Source: Spirochaetia bacterium (GTDB taxonomy: Bacteria > Spirochaetota > Spirochaetia > Sphaerochaetales > Sphaerochaetaceae). From it: DNA of 64,000 nucleotides. The notes beneath the pieces are model-generated. The model saw only the letters and a program-made list of their open reading frames with translations. It ran no database searches and was not told where the DNA came from. The stretch covers positions 2,714,784 through 2,778,783 of the forward strand of contig JAKVOU010000001.1 in NCBI GenBank assembly GCA_022482625.1, written 5' to 3'. A program made the translations under genes and the position numbers. Shown here one piece after another: positions 8,453 to 26,968 of the stretch (its first letter is position 1; each line of letters opens with the position of its first letter).

Positions 8453-9822
8453 CTACAGTTCTATGACATTTTCCTTGCCGACGGTCCGTGTGACGTCCTT
8501 CCCGTACTGGGAGATGGCATCGTCGATGGATGTCCCGCTCACGACTGATTCGACCATTGTCTGGATACAGGTCGACACTGCTGAATACTGGTCGTTCTGC
8601 GGACGGAAGTCAGCAGTCTGCAACAGATCTGTGGCCTGTCTGAAGAACGGCTGGTCAGCATAGGCCTTGACCGTGCTTACGTCAGTCCGTGTGCAGATGT
8701 TGCCTTGTTCGATGATTGAAGCCGTGTAGCATGGCTCCGGATCCATCAGATGCTTGATGAAGTCGAACGTCAATTCCTTCGCATCGGAATTCTCAGGAAT
8801 GGAGAACGCCCAGCCTCCGGAAAGCGTGATTGTCTTGGGAGCTTGTCCGTGATCGGTCGGCATGGCCGCCAATCCGAACTTGGTGGCATAGTCTGAAACT
8901 GGGGAAGGTCCCGTTTCCTTCCAGTTGCCCGTGATCCAGATGCCGTCAAGCGTCATGGCAAGCTTGTCATTGGGGAAATATTCCCGTGCCGAGGTATTGG
9001 AGGCCTGACCGTTGAGTACGAGGTCCAATGACGGCCCATACCCCTTCGTATAGATGTCCTGGAGGAACTTGAGGGACTTTTCGATTCCCTGGCTCTTGAT
9101 GACCCATTTGCCGTCTGGCGTGATGAGCCTGTCACCGGTTCCGTAAAGCAGCATCTCATAGGTCTGCATTGAAGTGGCTTCGCCGGTAGCTACGCCGGAA
9201 TTGCACCAGAAGGGAATCACACCTGGGCAGTTTGCCTTGACCTTGGCACAGAGGCATCCATGATGTCATCCCATGTAGCAGGCTTCCAGTCTTCACCTTC
9301 GGTGATGACTCCGGCTTTTGTCAGCAGGGCCCTGTTGTACCATAGTCCCCTGGTGTCGGTACAGTACGGGATGCCATAGACGGAACCGGAGGCATCACTC
9401 ACAGCTTTCTTCATGGCACCATAGTATTGTCCGTCGTTCCAGGCCTTGTAATTTTTCACAAAGGGATCGAGATTCGTCAGGTAACCGGCACTGACATCAT
9501 TTGGAAGCTGAAAGGTATCTTCCGTTACCAAGTCAGGACAGGTCGAAGGGTCGGACAACTGAAGGGCTATCTTGGTGAAGTAGTCACCTTCGGAAGCTGT
9601 GATGGGAGCAATCTTCAGATTGACTTGATCTTTCTTGTCCCAAGTATTATAACCTTTGGAAATCCACTGCCAAAGCTGTTGGTTCTCTCCTCTGCCGTCG
9701 TCGCGGAAGCAATAGGTGATCATAGGTTTCCCGTTGTCCGTCGTTTCCTTGTTCCCCTGTGCAAATGTTGCTCCTGTCGTTATCATGGACAGGATAGACA
9801 GCACTACCATGATTTTTTTCAT
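8453..9822 (-). pseudogene. Sugar ABC transporter substrate-binding protein, frameshifted
   Basis: The binding-protein gene of the mannosidase-linked importer. The first frame (9822 to about 9250) gives a Sec signal ending in TFAQG and a typical CUT1 N-lobe up to WDDIMDAS, then runs to an early stop at 9217. The adjacent frame resumes at once with AKVKANCPGVIPFWCNSG and continues through the C-lobe to 8453. Joining them needs one shift (2 extra or 1 missing base) near 9247-9256; the joined product would be about 455 residues, normal for the family. The start ATG at 9822 follows AAGGAG. Either the importer has lost its binding protein or the assembly has an error here. Confidence 0.88.
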
Positions 9823-9908
9823 ACGCTTCTCCTTTTTTAGTTTTTTTGAATATGCATATATCATTTATGGTATTTTCGTTAAATTATAATGCATATACAG
9901 GCTAAATT

Positions 9909-11001: not shown

Positions 11002-12027
11002 CTATTGCTTGGAGTGGGATCTGCTTTGAGGTATTACAGACTCTCCCTTTACCCTGGTCGTGTTGATTACCAATTGGATTGAAGAGGATTTTTCGCCTTG
11101 GATCCGTCTCATCAGTATTTCTACGGCAAATTCACATATCTTTTTCTTGTTTGAATTAATCGAATCCATTGAAAAAGGAATAGCAATTCGGCTTTGGATG
11201 TTATCAAAACCAATTATGGAAATATCATGTGGAATCTTTTTACCACTGTTCTTCAGGTATCGCCATGCATTCCATGCCAGCACATCATTGAAAGCAAACA
11301 AAGCCGTAAAGTCCTTTTTTGTAATTGATGAAAGAATTTCATTGAAGTCACTGTCCTTGACCAAGGGGACTTCAACAATCAAGTCCTTGTCTATTGGCAA
11401 GTTTGCTTCCTTGACAGCTTTCAGATAACCATTTTTCCTTTCGATTGCGCTGGAAATGTAATGGGGACCATTCAACAGCAATATTCGTCTGTGGTTATTC
11501 TCAATCAAGTACTTTGTAGCCTGGTAACCCCCAAGTTCATCACTGCAGATAACATAGTCGGTATCAAGTTGATAGAATCTCCTTCCAAGTAATACGAAAG
11601 GAATGTCCGTAGTTTTCAGGTATTCAATGTTTCTGGTGGTTTTTTGTGTCGGACATATGATAATTCCTTCAACCCTGTTGTTTATAGCTGATTGGATAGC
11701 AGCAAATTCACAGTTTTCATCTTCATTGGTATTAAGGAGAAAAGAACTGAACCCGTTTTTTGAAGCAGCATATTCGATTTCCTTCATCTGTATGGCAAAC
11801 AGGGGATTTGACACATCACCTAGAATTACTGCAATTGTCTTGGTCGAACCTGTGCGTAATGAAGAAGCAATATTATTGCCGATCAATCCCATTCTCTGTG
11901 CTGTTTTCTGTATCTTCTTCCTTGTCTGGACTGCAATATCATCCTTTTCCCGTAATGCCCGGGAAACAGTGTTGATGCTATAACCGGTCTCTTGAGCAAT
12001 ATCCTTTAAGGTAACCCTTTTTTTCAT
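11002..12027 (-). CDS. LacI-family transcriptional regulator
   Basis: A 341-residue repressor. The N-terminal helix-turn-helix and hinge read VTLKDIAQETGYSINTVSRALREKDDIAVQTRKKI with GLIGNNIASSLRTGSTKTIA; the sensor is a periplasmic-binding-protein fold (VILGDVSNPLFA, ALFAFNDVLAWNAW, ISIIGFDNIQSR). It lies downstream of, and in the same direction as, the glycyl-radical enzyme operon and very likely controls it together with the sugar ABC transporter. LacI-type palindromes centred on CG are found before the binding-protein gene (19663-19672), before the activase gene (15269-15286) and as a half-match upstream of this gene (12074-12083), suggesting autoregulation. Confidence 0.9.
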   Translation of the reverse strand: MKKRVTLKDIAQETGYSINTVSRALREKDDIAVQTRKKIQKTAQRMGLIGNNIASSLRTGSTKTIAVILGDVSNPLFAIQMKEIEYAASKNGFSSFLLNTNEDENCEFAAIQSAINNRVEGIIICPTQKTTRNIEYLKTTDIPFVLLGRRFYQLDTDYVICSDELGGYQATKYLIENNHRRILLLNGPHYISSAIERKNGYLKAVKEANLPIDKDLIVEVPLVKDSDFNEILSSITKKDFTALFAFNDVLAWNAWRYLKNSGKKIPHDISIIGFDNIQSRIAIPFSMDSINSNKKKICEFAVEILMRRIQGEKSSSIQLVINTTRVKGESVIPQSRSHSKQ

Positions 12028-12220
12028 TATGCAGAATTTTCCTCATTGCATTTCACTTCTGTACATTATAAACAACATTAACGAAAATAGCAATAATCAT
12101 ACGTAATATTCATGACAATGACAGATATGCCGGATTATGAATATCCGTATTATTTTATGATGTTGTTTAGAAAAACAATTGCTTAAGGAAATGACGGCCC
12201 AATTGTCGGCAATCACTTGA

Positions 12221-12239
12221 AATCAAGGGTTGCTTGATT
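12221..12239. other. Hairpin between the glycyl-radical enzyme and LacI genes
   Basis: AATCAAG-GGTTG-CTTGATT, a perfect 7-bp stem with a 5-base loop, 56 bases past the enzyme's stop. There is no T-run after it in the transcribed direction, so it may be an mRNA-end or processing structure rather than a strong terminator. Confidence 0.35.
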
Positions 12240-12294
12240 CTGTTCTGTGGTTTGCCGGTTATATTTTCCCTTGAAATTTAATGTTATCCTTGTA

Positions 12295-14373
12295 TTATGT
12301 CGATAATTCAATACGTTGGATTATATGGTCTTGGTAGCACTTGTCCAATTCTACGAAATAGCCGCTCCATCCCCATACACGTACAATGAGGTTGCGATAT
12401 TTCTCAGGATGTTTCTGTGCATCAAGAAGCGTATCTCTGTCAACGGCATTCAGCTGTAGTTGATGTCCCCCGAGGTCAAAGAAAGATTTTACGAATGTAG
12501 CAACTTTTTCGATGCTTTCGGAATTACGGAACATCGTATCATGCAGTTCCAATGTCAGCGGACCACCGTTGACGCATTTTGAAAGATCACTTTTTGTAAA
12601 ACTTTTTATGATTGACACAGGCCCGATATTCTTGCAGAACAGTGACGGTGAATAATTTGCAGGAATTCCTTCTCCTTTGTGCCTGCCGTCAGCAGTGGCC
12701 ATAAGGTCTTTTGAATGCCAGATATAGTACATGGCAGAACCTGTTCCTGCCCGGAAGATACCTCCACGGTCATTTCTATGTCCTTTCAATGCATTGCTGA
12801 AAGTATCCAGCAGATGAGCGGCTATGGCATCCACTTCGTCATCATTGTTTCCCATTTTCTCAGATTCATAACGAAAGATATTGCATATTCTGTTTTCATT
12901 CTTGAAATCATCATTCAGGGTCATCAGCAATGCTTCCTTCGTCATTGTTTTCTGTTCATAGATGTATTTTCTGATGTTTATCAGTGAATCGGCTGCTGTA
13001 GCAAGTCCTGTCCCATGGAAACCATAGTTATTGTATATACAACCTAAAGAAACATCTTTTCCTTTTTCGACACAACCATCCATCATCAACGACAGAAAAG
13101 GGGCGGGAAACAGAAATACGTTCTTTGTGCTGTCCATCAGGTCATTGCATGCTCCCCGGATATTTGCATCTATGGCATCTTGGAAATCCTGATACGTTTC
13201 GCACTCAAGAAGATGTGCCGTCGTGGCATCTGCAACTGCCCCTGCGAAGGACAAAGCTCCGATATTCGGGATATCCATTCCCTTTCCCGGTACAATGAAT
13301 TCCCAGCAGGCAGCGACGACATAGTTATATGCATCTTCCTTACTATATCCTAACTTGATCAGGCCTGGGATGATGATGTCATCACTGCTATATTGGGGAA
13401 AACCAAGACCCTTTTTTGTGAGGTTCGTTCCAAGGATATATGTAGAAAGGGGCGTGTGCCTGTGTACCCGTACGTTGATCTTCGGATCGATGACATGAAG
13501 GTCATAGGCAGCTTTCAGACAAAGTTCTGAAAGGCTGTTGAACTGATCATGTCCTTCTTCATCCATGCCTCCCAGCACCATGCTTTGTCCGTTGTCACCT
13601 TGCTGCATTCCCGGATACATGTCACTGTCACGGTTGAACGTAAGGAAAAATTCCTCAATAAGTTCCAGTGCAGTCTCTTCTGTATATATGCCGTTGTCCA
13701 TATCTTTTTTGAAATATGGATACATGAACTGGTCAAAACGGCCGATGGTATTATGATAATTCCTGCCACACCACATGCAGAAATGAATGATCCGGAACAT
13801 CTGCAGTGCTTCGAGAAAATTCCTTGGAGCAGCTTGCGGTACCTGTGACAATGTCCGTGCAAGAAATGGATTTTTGTTTTCTTTTGCAGCTTCCTTATAT
13901 TTTTCTGCCAGAGCCTCAATTCCATTTAGGATCCGGATTTGCTGTTTTTCAAGATGGGCTTCGTCGAGGCATCCTCTTTTTTCGAAATCAACGATATTCT
14001 TTTCCAATTCAGTTTTTTTTGCCTCAAAGCCGACTGACAGCAGTTTTGCATAGTCAACATTGATATTGCATACATCGCCTTTTTCATGGATATGATAGTT
14101 ATTGGAGAGTTTGGTCATTTCAGAGTCAGTGTAGATCTCGGGGATGACTGGTATCGTCCTTGTAAAACCGATACGTTCATTTTGGAAAACAACGGCTTTT
14201 TCATGCGCAAGTACGTAGAGCAGCCTTTCAGTGGCACGGTCCAGGGGAGAGGTATCATTTTCCTGGAATTGTTCGGCTAGAATAAAAGGATTCACAGGAG
14301 ATTGTCTGAAGGCTTTTTGTCCTTTTTCTTCTATGAAGAATTTCCTTAGTTTCTTTATATGGTCTGTCATCAT
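12295..14373 (-). CDS. Glycyl-radical enzyme, pyruvate formate-lyase/dehydratase superfamily
   Basis: A 692-residue cytoplasmic glycyl-radical enzyme. The C-terminal radical motif is RVWGWSGYF with the radical glycine at about 668. The thiyl cysteine is in YVVAACWEFIVPG, Cys356 with Glu358 two residues on. That Cys-x-Glu arrangement is shared by glycyl-radical eliminases and decarboxylases (glycerol dehydratase, CutC, hydroxyproline dehydratase, isethionate lyase) and differs from the Cys-Cys pair of true pyruvate formate-lyase. The protein is about 100 residues shorter than most described eliminases. Its ATG overlaps the activase stop by 4 bases (ATGA), so the two are translationally coupled. 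A LacI regulator, a sugar-type ABC importer and a Zn-dehydrogenase surround it, so the substrate is probably a polyol or sugar derivative (inference). I cannot assign the reaction. Confidence 0.92.
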   Translation of the reverse strand: MMTDHIKKLRKFFIEEKGQKAFRQSPVNPFILAEQFQENDTSPLDRATERLLYVLAHEKAVVFQNERIGFTRTIPVIPEIYTDSEMTKLSNNYHIHEKGDVCNINVDYAKLLSVGFEAKKTELEKNIVDFEKRGCLDEAHLEKQQIRILNGIEALAEKYKEAAKENKNPFLARTLSQVPQAAPRNFLEALQMFRIIHFCMWCGRNYHNTIGRFDQFMYPYFKKDMDNGIYTEETALELIEEFFLTFNRDSDMYPGMQQGDNGQSMVLGGMDEEGHDQFNSLSELCLKAAYDLHVIDPKINVRVHRHTPLSTYILGTNLTKKGLGFPQYSSDDIIIPGLIKLGYSKEDAYNYVVAACWEFIVPGKGMDIPNIGALSFAGAVADATTAHLLECETYQDFQDAIDANIRGACNDLMDSTKNVFLFPAPFLSLMMDGCVEKGKDVSLGCIYNNYGFHGTGLATAADSLINIRKYIYEQKTMTKEALLMTLNDDFKNENRICNIFRYESEKMGNNDDEVDAIAAHLLDTFSNALKGHRNDRGGIFRAGTGSAMYYIWHSKDLMATADGRHKGEGIPANYSPSLFCKNIGPVSIIKSFTKSDLSKCVNGGPLTLELHDTMFRNSESIEKVATFVKSFFDLGGHQLQLNAVDRDTLLDAQKHPEKYRNLIVRVWGWSGYFVELDKCYQDHIIQRIELST

Positions 14374-15218
14374 AGTATCTTGCTCCTTATTCCATATTTG
14401 GAAAATATCTTTGTATCGAGAAACACTTTTTGGTTTTCATCGAACGGCGGCATATATTTTTCCCCTATCATCTGGTACTTGGCGCCGGCAGCTTTCTGAT
14501 AGGGGAGTAATTCTACTTCCTGCAGGTTCTTGGCGCCGCTGAGAAAACGCGCAGTTTCCTCAAAATTTCCCTGATTGTCATTTATACCCGGTATGCAGGG
14601 AATACGGATGGTGAAAGGTTTGTTACCTTCGAGAAGGAACGAAGCATTTTTCAGAATGGACATGTTGCTTTTTCCGGTGTATTTCCGGTGCAGTGCATCG
14701 TCCATCATCTTGATATCCATGATGATGAAGTCAACGTTCCTATAAATTTCCCTGAACAGGTTTTCGTTTGCATAGCCACTTGTTTCGATGGCTCTGTGGT
14801 ATTGCTTGATCTGGCTGAGGACATCCAGGAGGAATTCGCCTTGTAGCAACGGTTCCCCGCCGCTGAAAGTGATTCCTCCTCCATACCTTGCATAGTAATC
14901 GGCATCTTTGCCTAAGCGTTTTGCCAATGCTGTACTTGAAATGACTTCACCGCAGATATGACGGAGATGCAAGGGACATTCATCGATACACTTGCCGCAA
15001 AGAATACAATTTTCGGGGGAAGGACAGGCTGCATGGCATTTACCGCAATGAGTACAGGAAGCGACGCTTACCATCAGTTGTGGCTTAGGAGAAATGCCCT
15101 CGGGGTTATGGCACCATAGGCAGTGAAGGGGACAGCCTTTCAGAAAAACTGTCTGCCGGATTCCTGGTCCGTCGAAAATGGCCAATTGCTTGATATCAAA
15201 AATAATTCCGCTGAACAT
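14370..15218 (-). CDS. Glycyl-radical enzyme activase (radical SAM)
   Basis: A 282-residue radical-SAM enzyme that installs the glycyl radical on its partner using S-adenosylmethionine. The CxxxCxxC cluster is KGCPLHCLWC (Cys29, 33, 36). A ferredoxin-like insert with two further 4Fe-4S motifs follows (CTHCGKCHAAC and CILCGKCIDEC), as in activases of glycerol dehydratase or CutC and unlike the short PflA. TFSGGEPLLQ is the SAM-binding GGE motif. The stop overlaps the glycyl-radical enzyme start. Transcription probably starts just upstream, where a LacI-type palindrome is found. Confidence 0.94.
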   Translation of the reverse strand: MFSGIIFDIKQLAIFDGPGIRQTVFLKGCPLHCLWCHNPEGISPKPQLMVSVASCTHCGKCHAACPSPENCILCGKCIDECPLHLRHICGEVISSTALAKRLGKDADYYARYGGGITFSGGEPLLQGEFLLDVLSQIKQYHRAIETSGYANENLFREIYRNVDFIIMDIKMMDDALHRKYTGKSNMSILKNASFLLEGNKPFTIRIPCIPGINDNQGNFEETARFLSGAKNLQEVELLPYQKAAGAKYQMIGEKYMPPFDENQKVFLDTKIFSKYGIRSKIL

Positions 15219-15268
15219 GATACTGTCCTTATGATTTGAGTAGTTTATTGTACATGGATAGGCAAGAA

Positions 15269-15286
15269 TACATTATCGATAATGTA
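15269..15286. promoter_or_regulatory. LacI-type operator before the activase gene
   Basis: TACATTATCGATAATGTA is a perfect 18-base palindrome with central CG. On the minus strand TTGCTA and ATAATG spaced by 17 bases overlap it, a plausible weak promoter. It resembles the CATTAACGTTAA site before the ABC operon, consistent with one LacI regulator controlling both units. Confidence 0.6.
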
Positions 15287-15332
15287 CAAAACGTAGCAAA
15301 CAGATCTATGCTGAAGGCTGTAGTATCTCTTA

Positions 15333-15362
15333 TCCGACCCTTGTGAAAAACAAAGGGTCGGA
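15333..15362. other. Strong hairpin upstream of the activase promoter
   Basis: TCCGACCCTT / AAGGGTCGGA is a perfect 10-bp stem with a 10-base loop. No T-run follows in either direction. It is the second of two hairpins between the dehydrogenase and activase genes; probably part of transcript-end protection. Confidence 0.5.
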
Positions 15363-15382
15363 CAAAGATTCATCAAGACATT

Positions 15383-15414
15383 CTGAAAGCAAAAAAGTTG
15401 TTTTTTGCTTTCAG
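15383..15414 (-). terminator. Hairpin directly after the Zn-dehydrogenase gene
   Basis: CTGAAAGCAAAAAA-N4-TTTTTTGCTTTCAG, a perfect 14-bp stem with a 4-base loop starting 9 bases after the stop codon. The A/T runs are inside the stem, so it could end transcription from either side. It separates the ABC/dehydrogenase unit from the activase/radical-enzyme unit. Confidence 0.55.
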
Positions 15415-15422
15415 GGAGTTGC

Positions 15423-16484
15423 CTATTTCAGTTCCTCATCAAAACAGACGGCTACCTTCCCGCAGTTCCCGCTTGCCATCAGCTGATAAGCATCTGAAGC
15501 TTTCTGCAGGGGGAAACGGTCAGTAATGAGGGTATCCGGATGGATATGCCACCGGACAAGGTGTTCTACAAGGTCTTCCATTTTCCAAATGGAAGTGACC
15601 CAGCTTCCGATCAGGGTCTTCTGTCCATGCAGCATGTCGGGCGATGGATTGAAATGAAGGCTCTTACCTTCCCCGATCATGACGATTTTTCCCCAGTTTC
15701 TCGTTGCCCTTATTGCCGTTTGCCTTCCAGGATCCGAGGCTGAGCAATCAAAAGCTCGCTCTGCACCATGGCCTCCTGTACATTTACGTATGTCTTCGAC
15801 AGTAGTTTCGCAGGGGGTAAATACCTCATCTACCAACCCGAGTGATTTTGCTACGGCAATCCTTTCCTGATTCATTTCCACCCCGATTAGTTTGTTTGCA
15901 CCTAAGGCCTTGCATAGCATCAGGCAGGCAAGACCGACAGGTCCCAATCCCACCACAAGTACTGCATCGTCACCGGATACACCGGCTTTTTCTATTCCTT
16001 CGTAGACAGTACCGAAACCGCAGGCTACTTGTGCTCCGTCCGCATAACTCAATGCATCAGGCAGGGCAATAAGATCCTTTTCGTCTGCAAGGAGATATTC
16101 TGCCATTCCTCCGTCACGTTGCCATCCGTAGGCGGCCCGTCTTGGTGAAGTACAGCTTACCATATATCCCATTCTGCAATCATGGCAGACTCCGCAGCCT
16201 GAGATATGATAGACGATGACCCTGTCACCTTTCTTGAATCTCTTCAGTCCAGGACCTTCTTCGACGATCAGGCCACACGGTTCATGTCCGGCAATGACAC
16301 CTTGATATCTTTCCGGACCGATACCTATGTGTTCGCGGTAAATGCAGCGTATATCGCTTCCGCAGATCGTAGAACACTTCATTTTGAGCAGGACCTGCCC
16401 AAAACCAGGGGTAGGAATATCGTATTCACGCAGTTCCACCGTACTGTTTCCAGGCAATACGGCACCAATCATTTTTCCTTTCAT
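15423..16484 (-). CDS. Zinc-dependent medium-chain alcohol/polyol dehydrogenase
   Basis: A 353-residue MDR-family oxidoreductase. Catalytic-zinc ligands are Cys41 (STICGSD) and His67-Glu68 (AGHEPCG); the structural zinc site is CGVCHDCRMGYMVSC (Cys97, 100, 103, 111); the NAD(P)-binding motif is VVGLGPVGLACLMLC. Such enzymes oxidise sugar alcohols, threonine or similar secondary alcohols. It is transcribed with the sugar ABC genes, starting 15 bases after the second permease, and precedes the glycyl-radical enzyme pair. It probably prepares the imported compound for the radical enzyme or reduces the product of it (inference). Confidence 0.92.
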   Translation of the reverse strand: MKGKMIGAVLPGNSTVELREYDIPTPGFGQVLLKMKCSTICGSDIRCIYREHIGIGPERYQGVIAGHEPCGLIVEEGPGLKRFKKGDRVIVYHISGCGVCHDCRMGYMVSCTSPRRAAYGWQRDGGMAEYLLADEKDLIALPDALSYADGAQVACGFGTVYEGIEKAGVSGDDAVLVVGLGPVGLACLMLCKALGANKLIGVEMNQERIAVAKSLGLVDEVFTPCETTVEDIRKCTGGHGAERAFDCSASDPGRQTAIRATRNWGKIVMIGEGKSLHFNPSPDMLHGQKTLIGSWVTSIWKMEDLVEHLVRWHIHPDTLITDRFPLQKASDAYQLMASGNCGKVAVCFDEELK

Positions 16485-16499
16485 GACAAACTCCTTAAG

Positions 16500-17345
16500 T
16501 TATCCTTTTACGGCTCCGAAACTTAATCCCCTGACTAGGGATTTTTGAATGAAAACAAACATAATTATCAACGGAATTACCAGGATGGTACCGGCAGCTG
16601 CCATACAGTTCCATTCAATACCGGTATCGGTGACAAATGATGAAATAGCTACAGGAAGTGTCTTTGTATGCATGCTGGTGAGGATAAGAGCAAAGATGAA
16701 TTCACTCCATGAGAGGATGAAGATGAATATACCTGTGGCGATGATACCCGGTTTTGCAATTGGATAGATTATCTTTGTCAGTATCTGCAGCTTGTTGCAG
16801 CCATCCAACATGGCAGATTCATCTTCTTCAACCGGAACATCATCAATGAAGCTTTTGATCATCCAGACTGAGTAGGGAAGATTGACGACTGTATAGATAA
16901 GGATTATGCCTGTATATGTATCAAGCAGACGGATTTTTGACAGTATCAGGTATATGGGAATCAGGATGGCAATCGGGGGCAGCATCTTTTGGCTCAATAT
17001 CCAGAATGCAAGATTGTCGGTGAAGTCATTTTTGATTCTTGAAAGTACATAGGAGGCCAAAGAGGCAACTATGACTGAAAAGACAGTAGAAATAACACAG
17101 ATGATCAAGCTGTTTTTGAAGTATCTGAAATAACTCAATGTTGAAAATACCTGGATATAATTTTCAAATGTAGGATGCAGGAACGAATAGAAGAAGGATT
17201 TGTTTCCTTCTATGTAGTTTTTTGATTGGAATGATACTGAGACAAAGTATAGGAACGGAACCAGCACAAACAGAAGTGCTGCAATCAGGATTATCCTTCG
17301 CAGAAGAGTACCTGCAAATCTTTCAATTTTGATTTTTTTTACCAT
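16500..17345 (-). CDS. Carbohydrate ABC transporter permease (MalG/CUT1 type)
   Basis: A 281-residue inner-membrane permease with six membrane segments and the EAA loop (VEEDESAMLDGCNKLQILTKIIYPIAKPG). In that loop, the usual E-E-A-A is D-E-S-A, a mild deviation. It forms a pair with the permease gene 16 bases upstream. No ATPase gene is linked. Confidence 0.9.
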   Translation of the reverse strand: MVKKIKIERFAGTLLRRIILIAALLFVLVPFLYFVSVSFQSKNYIEGNKSFFYSFLHPTFENYIQVFSTLSYFRYFKNSLIICVISTVFSVIVASLASYVLSRIKNDFTDNLAFWILSQKMLPPIAILIPIYLILSKIRLLDTYTGIILIYTVVNLPYSVWMIKSFIDDVPVEEDESAMLDGCNKLQILTKIIYPIAKPGIIATGIFIFILSWSEFIFALILTSMHTKTLPVAISSFVTDTGIEWNCMAAAGTILVIPLIIMFVFIQKSLVRGLSFGAVKG

Positions 17346-17361
17346 GATATGCTATGTCCTT

Positions 17362-18258
17362 TCAATCATTTTTTTTGTATTTGTTTATTGCAATCTGTGA
17401 AATCAGGATCGTAAATACCAGTAGCAGCAGGGATGTCGCGCATGCATAGGAAGTATCAAATAGTTCAAATCCTTGCCGATAGATGAAGTAGCTTACGGTT
17501 TCCGTATTCGTACCTGGTCCACCGTGTGTCATTGTGAAGATCTTATCGTATTCACGGATAGCATCCATTCCGCGGATCAGCATGGTAATGAAGATGGTCT
17601 TCTTCAGTGATGGCAAGGTGATATACCATAGGATCTGATGAGATTTTGCTCCGTCAATTTTTGCAGCTTCAAAGAATTCCACGGGCAGTGCCTGCAGGCC
17701 GCTGTAGAGAAAGAGAATGACGAAAGGTGTCCATTGCCAGATATCCGTTACTATGATTGACGGCAGTGCAGATTCTTTTCTGCCAAGGAACGGATATCGG
17801 TTTAATCCCATTCTTTCAAATAAGTTGTTGAGCATTCCTATGTCGTAGTTGTACATGAAACGCCATAATAAACCGACGATGATAGGTGTCAGCATCATCG
17901 GAAGAAGGAAGAAAACCAACAATCGTCTTCCGAATACTTCTTCCTTGTTCAGAAGCAGGGAAAGAAAGAGACCAAGGCCTAATTCAAACAAAAGACTGAA
18001 AAATACAAAAATGATGGTCCTGGAAAATGACAGCAGGAAGCTTTTTTCCATAAAAGCCTTTTTGTAGTTTGCAAACCCTACGAACGTGGTTTTGTTGAAT
18101 GGTCTTGCCAGTGAAAAGTTTGTACAGCTGACAACTACGGAATAAATCAAGGGGTAAATGTTGATCAATAAAAAAAGTACAATAGTCGGAAGCAGCAATG
18201 TATAGCAGGATCTGTCTTGTTTTTCTTTTATGTCAAGCTTGTTTCTTTTAAATTCCAT
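17362..18258 (-). CDS. Carbohydrate ABC transporter permease (MalF/CUT1 type)
   Basis: A 298-residue permease with six membrane segments and an EAA loop (VEFFEAAKIDGAKSHQILWYITLPSLKK). I start at the ATG at 18258, which follows AGAGGGA; the frame extends 10 codons upstream without a better site. It lies between the binding-protein and second permease genes of the LacI-regulated glycyl-radical cluster. Confidence 0.9.
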   Translation of the reverse strand: MEFKRNKLDIKEKQDRSCYTLLLPTIVLFLLINIYPLIYSVVVSCTNFSLARPFNKTTFVGFANYKKAFMEKSFLLSFSRTIIFVFFSLLFELGLGLFLSLLLNKEEVFGRRLLVFFLLPMMLTPIIVGLLWRFMYNYDIGMLNNLFERMGLNRYPFLGRKESALPSIIVTDIWQWTPFVILFLYSGLQALPVEFFEAAKIDGAKSHQILWYITLPSLKKTIFITMLIRGMDAIREYDKIFTMTHGGPGTNTETVSYFIYRQGFELFDTSYACATSLLLLVFTILISQIAINKYKKND

Positions 18259-18329
18259 GATGTGTTCCCTCTGGCTTTTCATACCCAAGGATATCTTGGG
18301 TATGAAAGGTCGTAAGACAATTTCAGATT

Positions 18330-19631
18330 CTACTTTTTTGTTAATGGCAAGATATCTTCTTCTGCTTTTTCCAAAGCTGCCTTAGGTGACAATTCACCTG
18401 AGATTGCCTGTGCTATCCTTACGTTCAACAGTTCATTGATTTGAGCTCCGCTGATTCCATGGTAGAAAATCACCGATTTTTCAAGGATGTCTACGATTGT
18501 CTTTACATGTGGGTTTACAGCGAGCAGTTCTGGATTACTTGCTTGGGATAACCTGGCTGCATGCTGGCGTCCATGGATTTCCATGTCAGTTGAGTTTGCT
18601 TTGTCTGTCAACCATAGTACCGTGTACGCAGCGGCGGCCTTATGCTTTGAATAACTTGAGACTCCCAGAGCCCATCCTCCAAGGCAAGCTCTGTATTTTA
18701 CTGTAGTATTTTCGGATTGTACCGGAAATACAGTACATGAAATCTTGCCCTTGACCGGGACATCAGAGCTTTCTACTTCAGGTGTAATTGCAGAAGCACT
18801 GACCCCCATGGCAATTGATCCCTCTTTTGCACTTTTGTTCAGCTCATATTCACCGTAGGTGTCAATGTCGGGTGGACAATATTTCTTCAGTTCCCTCAAG
18901 AGATTGATTGCATCTATTCCTGCCTGACTGTTGAATGCCGGCTGATTGTCTTCATCAAACAGTTCACCGCCCGCACTGAACAGGAACGGTACCCATGCCA
19001 GTGTCAGGTTGTTTCCTCTTCTGGCGGGGAATCCGAAGCCATATTGATCGATTTTGCCATCATTGTCAGTATCTTTTGTGAGTGCCTTTGCCACACTTAG
19101 CAGCTCATTCCATGTCTTTGGTGCCTCAAGTCCTGCTTGCTTAAGCAGATCTTTCCTGTAGAAGAAGACCCTGGTATCAGGCTGATATGGGAACCAATAT
19201 GTGTTCTTGCTGCCATTGAATTCTTTCCAGACATAAGGGATGATGTCGTCAATTTCCGGATCAGGGTAGTCGGCTTTACCGATATACTGGTTGAGAGGTT
19301 CTGCAAACTGAGCATATTCAAAGGACCACTCGGTACAGGGATTTATTATGTCATATCGCTTTGCACCGGTAACATCTGCCAATTGCTTGGCCCGGATGTT
19401 GTCGTAGGGAACTTGGTCTATCTGTAGATTTATACCAGTTTCTTCCTTCAGCTTGGGGGCAAGCACATTGATCATGTAGTCAGTGTCACTTGAAGTAAAA
19501 ATCAACGCATTGACTGTTTCCCCTTCAAACATCTTCTTGTTGCCGCTGTCGTCTTCTTGAGCTCCATTGGCAAAGACAGCCAATGAGGCAAAAAACAGGA
19601 CGGCAAAACCTGCCATAACCTTCTTTTTCAT
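18330..19631 (-). CDS. Sugar ABC transporter substrate-binding protein
   Basis: A 433-residue periplasmic binding protein of the CUT1 type. The Sec signal MKKKVMAGFAVLFFASLAVF ends in ANGAQEDD, with no lipobox Cys; the mature part has the two-lobe MalE-like pattern (WFPYQPDTRVFFYRKDLLKQ, TWNELLSVAKALTKDTDNDG). I start at the ATG at 19631, which has AAGGAGG upstream, instead of 32 codons earlier, where the frame overlaps the promoter and operator. It is the first gene of the ABC/dehydrogenase unit and defines the substrate of this cluster. Confidence 0.92.
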   Translation of the reverse strand: MKKKVMAGFAVLFFASLAVFANGAQEDDSGNKKMFEGETVNALIFTSSDTDYMINVLAPKLKEETGINLQIDQVPYDNIRAKQLADVTGAKRYDIINPCTEWSFEYAQFAEPLNQYIGKADYPDPEIDDIIPYVWKEFNGSKNTYWFPYQPDTRVFFYRKDLLKQAGLEAPKTWNELLSVAKALTKDTDNDGKIDQYGFGFPARRGNNLTLAWVPFLFSAGGELFDEDNQPAFNSQAGIDAINLLRELKKYCPPDIDTYGEYELNKSAKEGSIAMGVSASAITPEVESSDVPVKGKISCTVFPVQSENTTVKYRACLGGWALGVSSYSKHKAAAAYTVLWLTDKANSTDMEIHGRQHAARLSQASNPELLAVNPHVKTIVDILEKSVIFYHGISGAQINELLNVRIAQAISGELSPKAALEKAEEDILPLTKK

Positions 19632-19662
19632 AAAATACCTCCTTTGTATCGTTACGAAAACA

Positions 19663-19706
19663 TTAACGTTAACATTATTAATATCACTGATATCTGTATC
19701 CGTCAA
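19663..19706 (-). promoter_or_regulatory. Sigma-70 promoter with LacI-type operator for the second sugar ABC operon
   Basis: On the minus strand TTGACG (19701-19706) and TATTAA (19678-19683) are 17 bases apart. The perfect palindrome TTAACGTTAA (19663-19672) covers the expected start site. AACATTAACG here (19659-19668) recurs upstream of the LacI gene (12074-12083). Confidence 0.68.
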
Positions 19707-20029
19707 GAAAAAAATGTTCTCAGACAAGGGTTATATGATGAGAAAGTATCAGGGAAAAAGAAAATTGGAGATGTCGAAACAGGATTCTTTTTTCCTTGTA
19801 AGCGGATAATAAGTGACATAGAGTTGAAATACGCGGAAAAGGCTGATGTTCATTTCGTAGAATAATCATAGATAGTCGTATATCCAAGGATGTGGGTGGA
19901 TTACCATAGAAAATACTGCATGGGAAAACAAGAGAAAATACGTATGGATGCTATCAGGTTGTCATCGGTGGTCCATGGGAAGGCCAGAAGATACTCTCTG
20001 CAAGACTAGGCAGGAGATTGAAGAGTACT

Positions 20030-20295
20030 TCAAGCACTAGACATCCTCGGGCTTGATGCAAGCCACATACAGGATGCCGACGCCTTACTGCAGCTGCTCT
20101 ACGGAGCACTTGCCCACATCGCCCAAAATAATCTCACCGGCAGATACTCGTTCAGGGATGTCATGCATACCCTTGGAAACATACAGGACAACAGAGGCAA
20201 GGAGACATAATACCACATGTGTTGTTTACCCGCAGAATACGGGGAAGTGCTATCAGAACCTGGGAATCAGGATAGATGATTCCCTGAAAGCATAG
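20030..20295 (+). pseudogene. Degenerate 3' end of an unidentified, possibly transposase, gene
   Basis: The plus strand reads GLDASHIQDADALLQLLYGA, LAHIAQNNLTGRYSFRDVMH and TLGNIQDNRGKE, then a stop and a frameshift before LGIRIDDSLKA and a final stop. It is clearly decayed coding sequence with no start. I suspect a DDE transposase C-terminus from its composition and setting but cannot name a family. The rest of 19707-20327 shows nothing. Confidence 0.4.
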
Positions 20296-20327: not shown

Positions 20328-21776
20328 CTATTGAATATGACTATTGTTTCCTTCCTTTACATATGTATCATAGTAATCAAGATATTTGCTATAATGTTTC
20401 ATATATAGATCATGATGAGAGGTGATTGGATAGACCGCTTTTCTATCTTGTTGTATATATTCTTTTTCTTGTATGTCAAGTATATCCATTGACAAAGCAA
20501 TTCCACCGACCAATGATCCATGCGTGCTACGATCAATTTCAATAGGACGGTTGAATATATCGGTACACATCTGTACCCAGCTTGGGGAATGCAGGATACC
20601 ACCTGAAAGCTGTATTGAATGAGGTTCGTAATTGATGGAGACCAATGAGTTATAACATTGATAGATATTGAAAAGGATACCTTCTTGGATTGCTGTATAC
20701 AAATCGTATATGGATGTATCCGGCTTAAGATTCATGAATATGCCGGAAGCAGTATCCTGCCAGCCCGGGCAACGTTCACCAAATATAAAGGGAAGAAAAA
20801 CGGGTATGTCGGTCTTTACAGTATATGGTAACTCAAATTCACTGTATTTCCAATTGGCCATAGGGCTTAGTAGATTCTTATACCAGTCAATGCAGTTGCA
20901 GGCTCCTGAGGTTGCAGCTCCAGATAACCATGTTTTGGGAGAGTAATAGCACCATGTACTGTGACTTTTTGATAATGCAGGCTTATCTACCGACAGACGG
21001 ATTGCAGCACTTGTCCCGATTGAAAAGGTCATTGTGCCTTTTCCAAGGGCATCGGTTCCTATTTGGTTGAGTCCACCATCGGAATTGGTTAAGATTACCG
21101 GAGTACCCGACTGTATGCCCAAATAACTGGCAATTTCTTTAAGTAACCCTCTTGTTTCAGTGGATTTGATGATTTCGGGCAAAGGACCTTCGTCGATTTT
21201 TGATTCCTCCAGTAACATAGGATGATATGTCAGTTTCCGTATATCGAGGAATCCGCTTCCTGATGCTTCACATTCTGTTACGGCATACCGGCCGGTGAAA
21301 CGGTAATTATTATAAGTTCCTTGTCCTCCGATACGGCAGTTGCTCAGGTCTTTGATTTGTTTCTTTTTGTTTGCCAATTTTAATTTGAAGAAAGGATAGC
21401 TGGCATTTACCATACAACCGGTCATGTTGTAGTAATTATCTGTATATGCTTTGTCTTTCCGTAATTGCAGGCATAGGTCGGATGCCCAGGTACAGTTCCA
21501 TGGCATCATAGGAATAAGAGGATGCATCTTTTTGTCAAATATACCAAAAGAATGCCACGTTCCACCCAATGATATCATATCAATTCGGGACTCGGTATCA
21601 AGGACAGTCCTTGCGACGTCCAACATTGTTTTGAATATGGTTTCTGCATCTTGTAATGTAATATCGTCATACATATGGGGAAAAGCTTTTGTTTCCAAAA
21701 GGGTCTTCCTTGCAGCTGTATCGAAAAGCATGGCTTTTGCTGCCGATGTAGAAGATTCAAGTGCTAGGATTTTCAT
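20328..21776 (-). CDS. FGGY-family carbohydrate kinase (first paralogue)
   Basis: A 482-residue sugar kinase that transfers phosphate from ATP to a sugar or sugar acid in the cytoplasm. The N-terminal phosphate motif is ALESSTSAAKAMLFD, where the usual Asp is Glu; the C-terminal half has GTMTFSIGTSAAIRL, FGERCPGWQD and the FGGY signature-like SIQLSGGILHSPSWVQMCTDIFNRPIE. It is closely similar, roughly 70-75% by eye, to the kinase at 38.0-39.5 kb. It lies 288 bases downstream of the TTT transporter genes in the same direction, so it probably phosphorylates the imported, desulfated compound (inference). Confidence 0.88.
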   Translation of the reverse strand: MKILALESSTSAAKAMLFDTAARKTLLETKAFPHMYDDITLQDAETIFKTMLDVARTVLDTESRIDMISLGGTWHSFGIFDKKMHPLIPMMPWNCTWASDLCLQLRKDKAYTDNYYNMTGCMVNASYPFFKLKLANKKKQIKDLSNCRIGGQGTYNNYRFTGRYAVTECEASGSGFLDIRKLTYHPMLLEESKIDEGPLPEIIKSTETRGLLKEIASYLGIQSGTPVILTNSDGGLNQIGTDALGKGTMTFSIGTSAAIRLSVDKPALSKSHSTWCYYSPKTWLSGAATSGACNCIDWYKNLLSPMANWKYSEFELPYTVKTDIPVFLPFIFGERCPGWQDTASGIFMNLKPDTSIYDLYTAIQEGILFNIYQCYNSLVSINYEPHSIQLSGGILHSPSWVQMCTDIFNRPIEIDRSTHGSLVGGIALSMDILDIQEKEYIQQDRKAVYPITSHHDLYMKHYSKYLDYYDTYVKEGNNSHIQ

Positions 21777-21978
21777 GATATTTCCTTGATTTATGATTTA
21801 TTTCCAAGTTGCGGCTTGATTGGGGAAAATACAAACGATTTCTATTGCTCGGTTTCTGTGGGTTTGTCTCCATATCAGAAATAACTGTCCTTTCCTAAAA
21901 ACACAAACTTAACTCCAGAACAGATATCCATCAGCTTTAGGAACTGTGCCGGTTGTATCCTGCTATCCGATCAATTAA

Positions 21979-22006
21979 TGTTTCATTGAAAATGACATTG
22001 TTTCAT
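21979..22006. promoter_or_regulatory. Direct repeat TGTTTCATT upstream of the first FGGY kinase
   Basis: TGTTTCATT occurs twice, at 21979 and 21999, 20 bases apart. The same octamer TGTTTCAT forms the inverted repeats upstream of the sigma-54 promoters at 49-63 kb. No sigma-54 promoter was found between here and the kinase, so a regulatory link is uncertain. The remainder of 21777-22063 shows nothing else. Confidence 0.3.
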
Positions 22007-22063
22007 TTCTTGCTCATGCCTCTACATGTTGTCAGCAGTTATGTATGCCTCGTAAAATTTGCG

Positions 22064-23545
22064 TTATGCTTTTTTATGCTTCAGCATGACAAAAATGATA
22101 CTGGCAATTGATGCCAAAATGAAAAAGAGCGAAATCGGAGAAGTAAAAAAAGGAATCAGACTATTGTCACTGTATGAAAGACCCCGTCGCAGATACAATT
22201 CTGCCAAAGGTCCGATAATATACCCGATAATAAAAGGCTGGGTACTAAAATGCCATTTCTTCATAAAAAATCCTAAGATTCCAAACAAAAATATTGTAAA
22301 TACATCAAAAATCCTATAATTCAAACCATAGGCACCGATGATACATAATAAGCTGATAAAAGGTAACAATATATGTTTTGGCAATGAAAGTACGTGTACG
22401 AATCCTCTGATTGCAAAAAATTCTACGACAATCATAAAAATATTTGCAGTTATCAAAATTGCGAATATCAGATAAATCAACGAAGTGTTGTTTCGGAAAA
22501 GCAAAGGTCCCGGTGTCAGTCCTTGCATAGTCATTGCACCAAGTAATAAGGCTGTAACAGCATCTCCAGGGATTCCCAAGGACAAAAGGGGAATCATTGC
22601 TCCTCCTATTGCTGCGTTGTTTGCGGTTTCAGAGGCAACAATGCCCTGATTACATCCTGTACCGAAAATTTCTGGAGTCTTTGAACTTCTTCTGGCAATA
22701 TCATAGGACATCATGCTGGCAAGTGCTCCTCCGATTCCAGGAAGAATACCTATCAAAACTCCTATAGCCGATGAACGGAAGATGTTTCCTGTTTCTTGTT
22801 TCCATTCCTTGAAAGAAAAACCAAATCCTTTGAAAGATAACTTTTTTACTATCTTTTTGACCAGATGTTCACTTTTTTCATCTACATAGAGGAAAAGTTC
22901 GGATACTGCAAAGATACCGATCAAGACTGCAACAAGATTGAAACCATTTGAGAGAGAAGTAATGCCGAATGTCAGTCGTGGAATTCCATCAATCGGAGCA
23001 CCCCCGATCATGGCAAGCAATATACCTAGGAAACCCGATATGATTCCTCGGATGATGTTCTTGGATGACATGGTAATTATCATTGTCAGGGCAAACAGCA
23101 TCAATGAGAAATATTCAAAGCTACCGAATCTGATGGCAATTTTTGCCAAGGCAGGCGAAATGAAAATCAAGGCACAGATGCTCAGCATGCCTCCTACGAA
23201 TGACGAACAGATACCTAATCCAAGAGCCTTGCCAGCATATCCTTTCTTTGCCATCGGATAGCCATCGATCGTCGTAGCTATGGAAGCCGCTGTACCGGGT
23301 ACATTCAATAATATTGCGGCAACAAGACCTCCTGAAAAACCACCGATATATAACCCCAGCAGCAATGATATGCCCATATTGGTATTCATTGAGAATGTCA
23401 AAGGTAAGCAAAGGGCAATTGCCATGGTTGTTGAAAGTCCTGGGATTGCACCAAAGAAGATCCCGATACCGACTCCGAGCAATACCAAGAACAGTATACT
23501 AGGATGCAATACCGTCGAAAAGGCACTTAGAAAAAGATGTAGCAT
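22064..23545 (-). CDS. tctA: Tripartite tricarboxylate transporter large membrane subunit TctA
   Basis: A 493-residue, roughly 12-segment inner-membrane protein. The family-defining stretch GVGIGIFFGAIPGLSTTMAI is near the N-terminus and ATNNAAIGG-type repeats (ASETANNAAIGGAMIPLLSLGIPG) lie mid-protein. It forms the translocation channel of a TTT carboxylate importer with TctB (9 bases upstream) and the binding protein TctC. AGGAGG precedes the ATG. Confidence 0.94.
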   Translation of the reverse strand: MLHLFLSAFSTVLHPSILFLVLLGVGIGIFFGAIPGLSTTMAIALCLPLTFSMNTNMGISLLLGLYIGGFSGGLVAAILLNVPGTAASIATTIDGYPMAKKGYAGKALGLGICSSFVGGMLSICALIFISPALAKIAIRFGSFEYFSLMLFALTMIITMSSKNIIRGIISGFLGILLAMIGGAPIDGIPRLTFGITSLSNGFNLVAVLIGIFAVSELFLYVDEKSEHLVKKIVKKLSFKGFGFSFKEWKQETGNIFRSSAIGVLIGILPGIGGALASMMSYDIARRSSKTPEIFGTGCNQGIVASETANNAAIGGAMIPLLSLGIPGDAVTALLLGAMTMQGLTPGPLLFRNNTSLIYLIFAILITANIFMIVVEFFAIRGFVHVLSLPKHILLPFISLLCIIGAYGLNYRIFDVFTIFLFGILGFFMKKWHFSTQPFIIGYIIGPLAELYLRRGLSYSDNSLIPFFTSPISLFFILASIASIIFVMLKHKKA

Positions 23546-23554
23546 CCTTACCTC

Positions 23555-24025
23555 CTAACGTAGGAATAAAATTCCAATAGGGACATTTATCTTGAAAAGG
23601 AAATCAAAGATAAAATATACACAGACTGTAAAAATCACCGAAAGCATCAGGTAACGTAGTATTTTATTTTTTGTTACTGCTTCTTGATCCAGCAAGCACA
23701 TTTCTCCGAATAAAAAGAAACTACCACAGAGAATCAAACCAAAGATTTGAAGACCCAGACCACAACAACCGAACAAAACGACGGATAGGATGATTTTTTT
23801 ACTGATGGAAATCTTTTCCTCTCCTGGTTTCTTCGTTTTGACATAAAGCACTTGATTGACAATAGCCAAGGAGAACAGTACCAAGATTACGAAACGAGGT
23901 AATGCTGCAGGTCCTACTGAAAGCATCTTATTCCTTTTTACAATGTAAAAAGAATCAATAAAGAAAGATAATGATAAAATTATAAGAAAAAGTGAAGAAG
24001 GCAATATACAAGATTTTTTTCTCAC
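23555..24025 (-). CDS. tctB: Tripartite tricarboxylate transporter small subunit TctB
   Basis: A 156-residue membrane protein with four hydrophobic segments, the normal TctB size. I start at a GTG at 24025 that overlaps the sulfatase stop by 4 bases (GTGA), with GAGAGGAA before it; the frame continues 40 codons upstream inside the sulfatase gene, which cannot be membrane-protein sequence. The overlap means translational coupling of a transporter subunit to a sulfatase. Confidence 0.85.
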   Translation of the reverse strand: MRKKSCILPSSLFLIILSLSFFIDSFYIVKRNKMLSVGPAALPRFVILVLFSLAIVNQVLYVKTKKPGEEKISISKKIILSVVLFGCCGLGLQIFGLILCGSFFLFGEMCLLDQEAVTKNKILRYLMLSVIFTVCVYFIFDFLFKINVPIGILFLR

Positions 24026-25494
24026 CGTATTCCTCTCTGTAATTTCATATCCCGTCCACGGAACAATTTGTTGTTGTCTTTTAGTGAAGATATGAATTGA
24101 TAGTCTTTGCTTGGCAAGCCGACGAATTTTCCATTCTTGATCCAATCAGAATCTTTTCCATGTAACTTAGCTTTTAATTGGTCCTTTAATTCCAGAATTA
24201 TCTGTCGGTAGGCTGGTTCTGCGATAAGGTCGTGCATTTCATTCGGGTCATTGATCCTATCAAAGAATTGGAATTGGTTTCCGACAGCATAATAAATCAA
24301 TTTGTACTTTTGGGTAAGTATCATCCTTGTTGCTCTGTCATCTTCCCATAGTTCACAATAACTATAAGTCCTCTTTTTCTGATCCAACATTGAAATACCA
24401 TCAACATCATCAGGAATTTCCAATCCAGTCAATTTCAGTAGGGTTGGCATGATGTCCTTGAGTTCAACAAGTCTGTCATCCACAACGCCGCATTGGCAGT
24501 CCGAATCATAGGTCGGAATCAGAATCATCGGAATGTTTACAGAGTTTTCATACATGAGGAACTTGCCCCATAGGTTATGGTTACCGAGCATTTCTCCATG
24601 ATCAGCGGTAAACAATAGTATGGTATCTTCCAGGATTCCTTCTTCCCGCAATGTACCTATTACTAGTCTGATCTGATGATCAATATGGGTGCAAGTGGCA
24701 TAATAGGCTTTTTTGGCATTCGCCAATTTTCGTTTGGTATCGATATGATACATTTTGGAATAGTACTGGTAGGCAAATGGCAAAGTATCTGTTTTCATTA
24801 CCCAATCTCCGATATAGGGTTCACGGAATTCTATATCTTCATACATATCCATATAGTCCTTCGGTGGTACTAGCGGCGGATGAGGTGCACTATAGGAAAG
24901 GTACCAAAACGCAGGTCTTGTCGGATCTCTTCTTTTGATTGTTTCACACATGTCCCTGGTTGCCCATGTGGTTGGATGAAAAGCTTCATCCAGGTGAAAA
25001 GGGCGTGCGAAGTAATCATTATTGCACATACCATGGGCAAATTCCAATCCTGGAAAGCCATTTTTCATCAAGAACCTTTCATAATCATCTTGCTGAAGTC
25101 CTTCAAAATGTCTTCCTTCTTCACAGAGATGCACATCATCGAATCCTATTCTGTTCCGTTGCGGAAATACATGTAGCTTACCCGTTGCATAGGCTTGGTA
25201 TCCATTGTTCCGAAATACTTGGGCCAACGTTGGCAAAGTGGAAGGCATTTCAAGCTTGGTGTTGAAAATCCTATCGCCATGCTTGACATCGCCGACACCA
25301 AGCATCAGCTCCCTTCTGGCAGGGATACTGACAGGTGTCGTTGAAATAGCGTTGGTATATCGGATGCCATAATTTGCCAGTTCATCCAAAGATGGCGTAA
25401 GGATTTCATTTTCTCCTGCACAGCCCAAATACTTGCCTGACCATTGGTCGACAGTAATCAATAGTACATTTTTCCGTTTCATTTTAAAGCCCAT
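24022..25494 (-). CDS. Sulfatase, Ser-type, cytoplasmic
   Basis: A 490-residue member of the alkaline phosphatase/sulfatase superfamily. Metal-binding residues appear in LLITVDQ near the N-terminus and TADHGEMLGNHNLWGK later. The active-site signature is S-I-P-A-R at residues 56-60, with Ser as the residue converted to formylglycine; Ser-type sulfatases need a radical-SAM maturase, which is not in this window. There is no signal peptide, so it acts inside the cell. It sits between tctC and tctB, implying that a sulfated carboxylate or sugar acid is imported and then desulfated (inference). A choline-sulfatase or phosphonate monoester hydrolase-like specificity cannot be excluded. Confidence 0.88.
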   Translation of the reverse strand: MGFKMKRKNVLLITVDQWSGKYLGCAGENEILTPSLDELANYGIRYTNAISTTPVSIPARRELMLGVGDVKHGDRIFNTKLEMPSTLPTLAQVFRNNGYQAYATGKLHVFPQRNRIGFDDVHLCEEGRHFEGLQQDDYERFLMKNGFPGLEFAHGMCNNDYFARPFHLDEAFHPTTWATRDMCETIKRRDPTRPAFWYLSYSAPHPPLVPPKDYMDMYEDIEFREPYIGDWVMKTDTLPFAYQYYSKMYHIDTKRKLANAKKAYYATCTHIDHQIRLVIGTLREEGILEDTILLFTADHGEMLGNHNLWGKFLMYENSVNIPMILIPTYDSDCQCGVVDDRLVELKDIMPTLLKLTGLEIPDDVDGISMLDQKKRTYSYCELWEDDRATRMILTQKYKLIYYAVGNQFQFFDRINDPNEMHDLIAEPAYRQIILELKDQLKAKLHGKDSDWIKNGKFVGLPSKDYQFISSLKDNNKLFRGRDMKLQRGIR

Positions 25495-25682
25495 GTGTCC
25501 TTCTAAAACTGATTTTTATTTATGATAAATGAATAAAAGACTTGTTATTTCAGTTTGAAATTTCTTGGCCCAAGATACTGGTTGATATGATTATGTTTTC
25601 TCTGCATTATATGGATTCTTATGCTTGTAAGTGGCATAGGACCCGTTCATTGCACAGTTGTATGATTTTTCCAATTACTTTC

Positions 25683-25713
25683 CTACTTCCATAGTTTTTG
25701 ATTATGGAAGTAG
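25683..25713. other. mRNA hairpin between tctC and the sulfatase gene
   Basis: CTACTTCCAT-N11-ATGGAAGTAG, a perfect 10-bp stem starting 13 bases after the tctC stop, without a T-run in the transcribed direction. Such hairpins often stabilise the binding-protein part of a transport operon message. The rest of the 231-base gap shows nothing. Confidence 0.55.
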
Positions 25714-25725
25714 AAAATAAAACGC

Positions 25726-26673: not shown

Positions 26674-26968
26674 ATAGGTTTCTCCTTTTGCAATTTATGA
26701 TAAGGCTGTATATTGCTATTCGCAATGGAAACTTTGAACTCAGTTTTTTGAATAAATTCGAACTTTTCTTAATTTGCTTCATTACAGATGCTAAGGTGTT
26801 TTTACGGGGATATCTGTTCTTTCTATATGGAAGAATGATTCTGTCTACTGTAAATGGATAGCTTGGAGTTCTTTGTAAATACCTTGACAGTTTAGTTTGC
26901 TTTTGAAAAAAATACTTTATAGACAAAATAGTTATTTCTTTTATTAAAAAGAAATCGGAGGGAGAAAA

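Follow-up and report, generated by a model that had tools for sequence, protein, structure and literature searches.

A short glycyl-radical enzyme subfamily of spirochaetes and Clostridia with a possible role in plant pentose catabolism

Substrates are known for only a few subfamilies of glycyl-radical enzymes (GREs), and the subfamilies concerned mostly act on small polar molecules. The described systems closest to the locus analysed here are the B12-independent glycerol and 1,2-propanediol dehydratases, in which H164 and D447 (numbering of the glycerol dehydratase 1r8w) are presumably the two acids that expel water in diol dehydratases. Further points of comparison are YbiW and PflD of E. 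coli, which are 1,5-anhydrohexitol 6-phosphate GREs, and the trans-4-hydroxyproline dehydratase HypD. The solved relatives are mostly about 759-897 residues long, and a preliminary description of this locus, made from the DNA letters alone, had correctly held the known dehydratases and lyases to be longer than its enzyme. No paper on a GRE tied to arabinose, sugar importers or anhydroglucitol was found in the open-access literature, and the substrate class of the subfamily described here is possibly new.

The cluster in its spirochaete genome

The window, a 64,000-nucleotide stretch of a contig from a Spirochaetia bacterium, carries the GRE gene within three minus-strand units (Table 1): a sugar-binding protein gene followed by two permease genes and an MDR dehydrogenase gene (19631-15423), the activase-GRE pair (15218-12295), and lacI (12027-11002). 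The end of the activase gene overlaps the start of the GRE gene as ATGA, and the activase sequence contains two CxxCxxCxxxCP ferredoxin motifs. The preliminary reading of a 692-residue GRE with a Cys-x-Glu site, coupled to a two-ferredoxin activase and grouped with a Zn dehydrogenase, a CUT1 importer and a LacI repressor, thus stands in each of these parts, with Pfam matches far above the curated thresholds for every member. A terminator was sought between the dehydrogenase and activase genes, and only an inverted repeat lacking a T-run was seen. There is no arabinose gene within the window's own cluster. The LacI protein is approximately 50-52% identical to the LacI proteins adjacent to the GRE in loci L006, L007 and L039 and is the probable regulator of the importer unit and the activase-GRE unit.

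Table 1. Features of the cluster, in window coordinates
Feature	Position	Strand	Basis or remark
LacI-family repressor	11002..12027	-	PF00356 and Peripla_BP
Degenerate operator-like half-site ACATTAACGAAAATAG ahead of lacI	12075..12090		Three mismatches; weak
GRE, 692 aa, short subfamily	12295..14373	-	Pfam PFL-like 306.7 bits (threshold 24.3) and Gly_radical 77.5 bits (threshold 22.2)
Codon of Gly668, expected glycyl-radical residue, in loop RVWGWSGYF	12370..12372	-	Alignment
Codons of Cys356-Trp357-Glu358, thiyl-radical site	13300..13308	-	Alignment to C-x-E of glycerol dehydratase 1r8w
Radical-SAM glycyl-radical activase, 282 aa, two ferredoxin motifs	14370..15218	-	TIGR02494 277 bits (cut-off 174); Pfam radical SAM
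Operator ACATTATCGATAATGT ahead of activase-GRE unit	15270..15285		Consensus 16-mer, exact ahead of GRE-regulon genes in five other genomes and locus L008
Zn-dependent MDR dehydrogenase	15423..16484	-	PF08240/PF00107 (ADH_N/ADH_zinc_N); role uncertain
CUT1 ABC permease	16500..17345	-	PF00528 (BPD_transp_1); GlcU-type 124 bits, below cut-off
CUT1 ABC permease	17362..18258	-	PF00528; GlcT-type 115 bits, below cut-off
Sugar-binding protein of the importer	18330..19631	-	PF01547 (SBP_bac_1) 122 bits; PDB matches mostly sugar-binding proteins, e.g. 5iai, 1eu8
Operator-like ACATTAACGTTAACAT ahead of importer-dehydrogenase unit	19660..19675		Two mismatches to ACATTAWCGWTAATGT

An FGGY kinase gene (20328-21776) was considered as a member of the cluster and left out, as it lies about 700 bp away, beyond the importer promoter, beside TctA-, sulfatase-, TctC- and Gnd-like genes. 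This row on one strand (20328-29730) encodes the kinase, a TctA-like membrane protein, a sulfatase-like protein, a TctC-like binding protein and a 6-phosphogluconate-dehydrogenase-like protein, and may constitute a distinct system that handles a sugar acid or sulfated compound. Lying on the plus strand between the kinase and the importer promoter, a reading-frame fragment (19740-20250) looks like a remnant of a transposase or other open reading frame. To the left of the cluster, a second CUT1 importer has its binding-protein gene (8453-9864) split over the frames 9217-9864 and 8453-9220, apparently through a frameshift or a sequencing error; the permease that follows is intact when read from an upstream start. 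Elsewhere in the same genome (L163:7025-7684, in the C1:3024942 region), the araD gene next to araA is likewise split between two frames, and another, intact araD is found at C1:2556510. The several frameshifts in this genome suggest indel errors or decay.

A separate clade of short enzymes and its active site

The window GRE has approximately 48 relatives at 44-61% identity, borne by spirochaetes of the Treponema type and by Clostridia of the gut or rumen. Among species genomes, a scan yielded 38 loci, almost all of which hold homologues that are 46-61% identical, while a genome search among the window's relatives gave six high-scoring matches (some of them perhaps in genomes already counted) and a search within the family of one clostridial genome gave four more. 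The subfamily is rare (6/150 relatives, 5/400 genomes) and its members are about 670-692 residues long. They are sharply set apart from other GREs, since members are at least 44.5% identical to the window enzyme and the next GREs in the same comparison at most 30.4%. None of the other GREs compared exceeds 31% identity; a plasmid collection held other GREs only (best about 31% identity), and no GRE relatives were found in the viral contigs searched.

A tree of 77 sequences, which included YbiW, PflD, HypD, CutC, the microcompartment propanediol dehydratase and several PFL-like enzymes, places the 42 short sequences in one clade with support of 100, on a stem 1.34 changes per column long. Its closest outgroup is the GRE of locus L050 (support 91). 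Grouping with a characterised family that matches it in length and context, which would have spoken against the preliminary placement of the enzyme outside known families, does not occur in this tree. Profile scores agree, as no NCBIfam equivalog cut-off is reached by the window GRE: TIGR01774 (PFL2-3), a general match only, gives 325.6 bits (cut-off 678.2), the HypD profile NF043068, second best in NCBIfam, 304 bits (cut-off 1100), the sulfopropanediol dehydratase profiles NF048009 and NF048011 (HpfG/HpsG) 273.6 and 240.5 bits (cut-off 1000), and the choline lyase profile TIGR04394 (CutC) 243.9 bits (cut-off 1050). An AlphaFold2 model of the window GRE (pLDDT 86.5, pTM 0.88, with a poorly predicted C-terminal loop) has 5i2a, 1r8w and 5fau as its nearest solved folds. 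About 60 residues fewer ahead of residue 100 and further shortened loops account for the small size, and the model still aligns from residue 1. On this sequence evidence, the short GREs form a subfamily of their own within a known superfamily and belong to none of the characterised families tested.

Two other GRE contexts came to light. One (L167:8728-11846) encodes a 736-residue GRE with the loop RVWGFNAYF and an activase, and has an FGGY-like kinase and a sugar-type ABC importer nearby. The other (L100:1018-4216) is a Parabacteroides GRE with its activase beside an N-acetylmannosamine-6-phosphate 2-epimerase and a ROK protein, possibly an amino-sugar GRE, and L089 is a spirochaete relative.

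In the alignment of 34 members, C356, W357, E358 and the loop RVWGWSGYF with G668 are invariant, and C356 is the sole invariant cysteine. The loop is unusual, as most other GREs carry RVaGYSa. Also invariant are H207, N208, K298, N300 and H453, several of which differ from most other GREs, and two asparagines, N103 and N370, which occupy the positions of H164 and D447 of 1r8w in an alignment that is ungapped around both. An Asn at each of the proton-donor positions of the dehydratases argues against a plain loss of water, and with these acids missing, the leaving group could be something other than water or be absent altogether. With its abundance of Asn, His and Lys, the presumed pocket would be well suited to a polyhydroxylated substrate.

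Arabinose genes, a shared operator and co-occurrence

Approximately 12 of 46 loci, some of them closely related to each other, have arabinose-related genes within 9 kb of the GRE. Pfam and NCBIfam checks place GH127 near it in L006, L007, L023 and L024, GH51 in L017, L021 and L033, and AraA, AraB or AraD in L010, L012, L027, L065 and L066. Several loci are packed closely enough to suggest operons: a GH51 arabinofuranosidase gene stops just 1 nt short of the GRE gene in L017 and 6 nt short of it in L033, a gene of the beta-L-arabinofuranosidase family GH127 lies 11 nt before it in L024, an isomerase gene is directly upstream in L019 (within 1-11 nt), and AraD is directly downstream in L066, starting 25 nt after it. 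AraA-AraB-AraD genes are divergent from the GRE gene in L010 and L012, L027 has an AraB-like kinase and an isomerase in the same gene row, and in L065 a YtfQ-type furanose-binding protein (263 bits, below cut-off) follows the GRE. A second recurrent set, found in spirochaetes and one clostridium, consists of an isomerase, an RbsABC-like importer, the activase and the GRE; in L054 it is extended by LacI and, after the GRE, by a class II aldolase and an FGGY kinase, and in L022 an aldolase follows the GRE. Many loci (e.g. L008, L009, L011, L013 and L025) have no arabinose gene nearby. The other neighbouring glycosidases (GH88/GH105, GH28, GH39 and one lacto-N-biose phosphorylase) mean that the sugar could be another cell-wall sugar.

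The sugar connection proposed from the window is thus upheld by importers, glycosidases, isomerases and sugar kinases beside the GRE in relatives and is narrowed, most likely, to L-arabinose or a related pentose, but the CUT1 importer is not a general feature, importers at other loci being RbsABC/YtfQRT-like or MFS. The Zn-polyol dehydrogenase, read at first as a pathway member, did not hold up: it belongs to the importer's transcription unit, and an MDR dehydrogenase is near the GRE in only 2/46 loci, the window and, at 7 kb, L065. Directly after the GRE in L053 (11309-11950) lies a DUF4867 gene, and a protein of similar sequence lies between the isomerase and xylulokinase in L165; DUF4867 is perhaps a pentose-processing protein.

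The CG-centred palindromes that had been noticed ahead of both transcription units are indeed present (Table 1). Their pattern is not above chance within the window alone; across 46 loci, 21 sites with at most three mismatches were found where a first-order Markov model expects 4.9. Exact ACATTAWCGWTAATGT palindromes occur in the window (15270), L006 (1299, 5398), L007 (8024, 12127), L008 (1198) and L055 (15730, 17288). When eight genomes were searched at up to one mismatch, seven had one to three sites each, and all ten exact ACATTAWCGWTAATGT sites, found in six of the eight, precede GRE, sugar importer, isomerase or GH127 genes. The L053, L054 and L056 genomes have additional sites in other places, ahead of GH127-CUT1, isomerase or binding-protein genes, which makes the co-regulation of these genes with the GRE probable as far as sequence can tell. 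On the same kind of evidence, the GRE, importer, isomerase and GH127 genes share one putative operator in several genomes, spirochaetes among them.

The gene content of whole genomes points in the same direction. AraD, scored by the NF006047 cut-off, is present in 27/30 GRE genomes and in 68/200 background genomes of one clostridial family (Fisher p = 4 × 10−9, uncorrected for relatedness); with the spirochaetes left out the enrichment persists (p = 5 × 10−7, likewise uncorrected). Most relatives are metagenome-assembled genomes, and many are incomplete. Of the 30 GRE genomes, 18 lack AraA and 28 have a fucose-isomerase-like protein. In the L006 genome, the gene for this protein shares an operon with those for an AraB-like kinase and AraD, and the protein may therefore replace AraA there; in the L018 genome, it lies beside a xylulokinase (570.9 bits, cut-off 380). 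A takeover of the entire arabinose pathway by the GRE was considered and rejected in view of how often AraD and the isomerase-like protein are present, and the loss of AraA is a weak explanation of the GRE, because the isomerase-AraB-AraD operon of L166 speaks for a replacement of AraA. The fucose-isomerase-like proteins of about 490 residues in the XylB and AraB-AraD operons (L165:8883-12535 and L166:6114-9857) have hardly any curated NCBIfam match, and perhaps replace XylA or AraA.

Proposed role, competing readings and relation to known enzymes

The arabinose-gene operons, the shared operator and the excess of AraD together tie the GRE to a pentose, most likely L-arabinose, and we regard this link as somewhat better than an even bet. 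An early step on an unphosphorylated sugar is the likeliest role. Whether the short GRE helps to break down L-arabinose from plants, or a pentose close to it, at such a stage and in the manner set out here is about evenly balanced; standard arabinose enzymes already suffice for L-arabinose, which counts against the arabinose reading. In the proposed mechanism, the CUT1 importer would bring a small saccharide into the cell, and LacI would repress both the importer unit and the activase-GRE unit through the matching palindromes. The activase would use SAM to set a radical on Gly668, from where it would pass to Cys356. The Cys356 thiyl radical would then abstract a hydrogen from a hydroxyl-bearing carbon of an unphosphorylated sugar while Glu358 accepts the hydroxyl proton, and the neighbouring C-O bond would break as in related dehydratases and lyases, this being the most economical chemistry. 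The product would enter pentose metabolism by way of an isomerase, an FGGY kinase, and AraD or a class II aldolase. The repressor binding, substrate, broken bond and product of the window GRE are what we infer; cleavage of a C-O bond by radical chemistry, with an unphosphorylated pentose or a small pentoside as substrate, is favoured, and any one specific reaction is, taken singly, unlikely. It is doubtful, if worth entertaining, that the GRE acts directly on a free unphosphorylated pentose by chemistry new to the superfamily, through loss of a non-water substituent or through radical isomerisation or epimerisation; gut and rumen anaerobes would then have a further way into arabinose metabolism, by radical chemistry.

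Among the specific alternatives, a lyase that opens the ring of an anhydro-sugar or another cyclic ether, and would take hydrogen next to the ring C-O bond to give a deoxy-ketose, is improbable yet survives best. The analogy is with YbiW and PflD, solved relatives with a bound sugar-like ligand according to the titles of 8id7 and 8id0; E. coli ybiW adjoins the fsaA aldolase gene, and the aldolase and kinase of L054 and the aldolase of L022 would be in keeping with it. A tethered ring oxygen might also make the loss of the water-expelling acids tolerable. However, YbiW and PflD fall in other clades, neither a PTS nor FsaA was noted next to short GREs, and we know of no anhydro-pentitol that is a common plant carbon source.

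Slightly less probable is a radical isomerase or epimerase of a free pentose, which would abstract a hydrogen and return it without a leaving group. Such an activity would fit the presence of N103 and N370 in place of both diol-dehydratase acids, and the frequent lack of AraA, but the fucose-isomerase-like protein could itself stand in for AraA, C356 alone is invariant so that no second conserved cysteine is evident as a hydrogen donor, and no GRE with such an activity is known to us. It is rather improbable, too, that the GRE is a small-diol dehydratase that clears a sugar by-product, for example ethylene glycol made from glycolaldehyde by the window dehydrogenase: the glycerol and propanediol dehydratases are its nearest solved enzymes by sequence and fold, and the L054 kinase and class II aldolase could make glycolaldehyde from a pentose, yet the H164/D447 pair is replaced, the short GREs lie outside the propanediol dehydratase clade, microcompartment genes were not noted beside them, the dehydrogenase is not conserved, and the AraD route yields no glycolaldehyde. 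Cleavage of the Hyp-O-arabinose bond of plant cell-wall glycoproteins by chemistry resembling that of HypD is very improbable, for although GH127 enzymes, neighbours in four loci, are known for extensin-type arabinosides and HypD ranks high among the profiles, its cut-off is far from reached, the GH51/GH43 loci point to arabinan rather than hydroxyproline, and no proline-pathway gene was noted beside the GRE.

The operon and operator ties to plant pentose use cut the substrate search to a short list. If the proposed role in early pentose catabolism is true, a radical step would be added to plant-fibre fermentation.

The window GRE shares its fold, C-x-E thiyl site, glycyl loop and two-ferredoxin activase with the B12-independent glycerol and 1,2-propanediol dehydratases (1r8w, 5i2a/5i2g, 9rco), and its model superimposes on the propanediol and glycerol enzymes with Z-scores of 38.9 and 38.6 (rmsd 3.4 and 3.1 over 662 and 653 residues, 26-28% identity). 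It differs from them in being about 100-150 residues shorter, in the asparagines at H164 and D447, in the loop RVWGWSGYF, and in that no microcompartment was noted. The short GREs likewise fall outside the clade of the microcompartment-linked propanediol dehydratase of Rahnella (L097), their own clade having full support. HypD, for all its rank among the profiles, differs in its motif residues and sits on a separate branch. The GRE of L050/L167, from a spirochaete of the same class, has RVWG in its glycyl loop and a comparable neighbourhood of kinase and importer, but is only 29% identical and likewise uncharacterised. YbiW (8id7) and PflD (8id0) resemble the short GREs in fold and in a sugar-like substrate class but are approximately 24-31% identical and belong to other clades; their genes have PTS genes (around pflD) and fsaA (beside ybiW) as neighbours rather than importers of free sugars.
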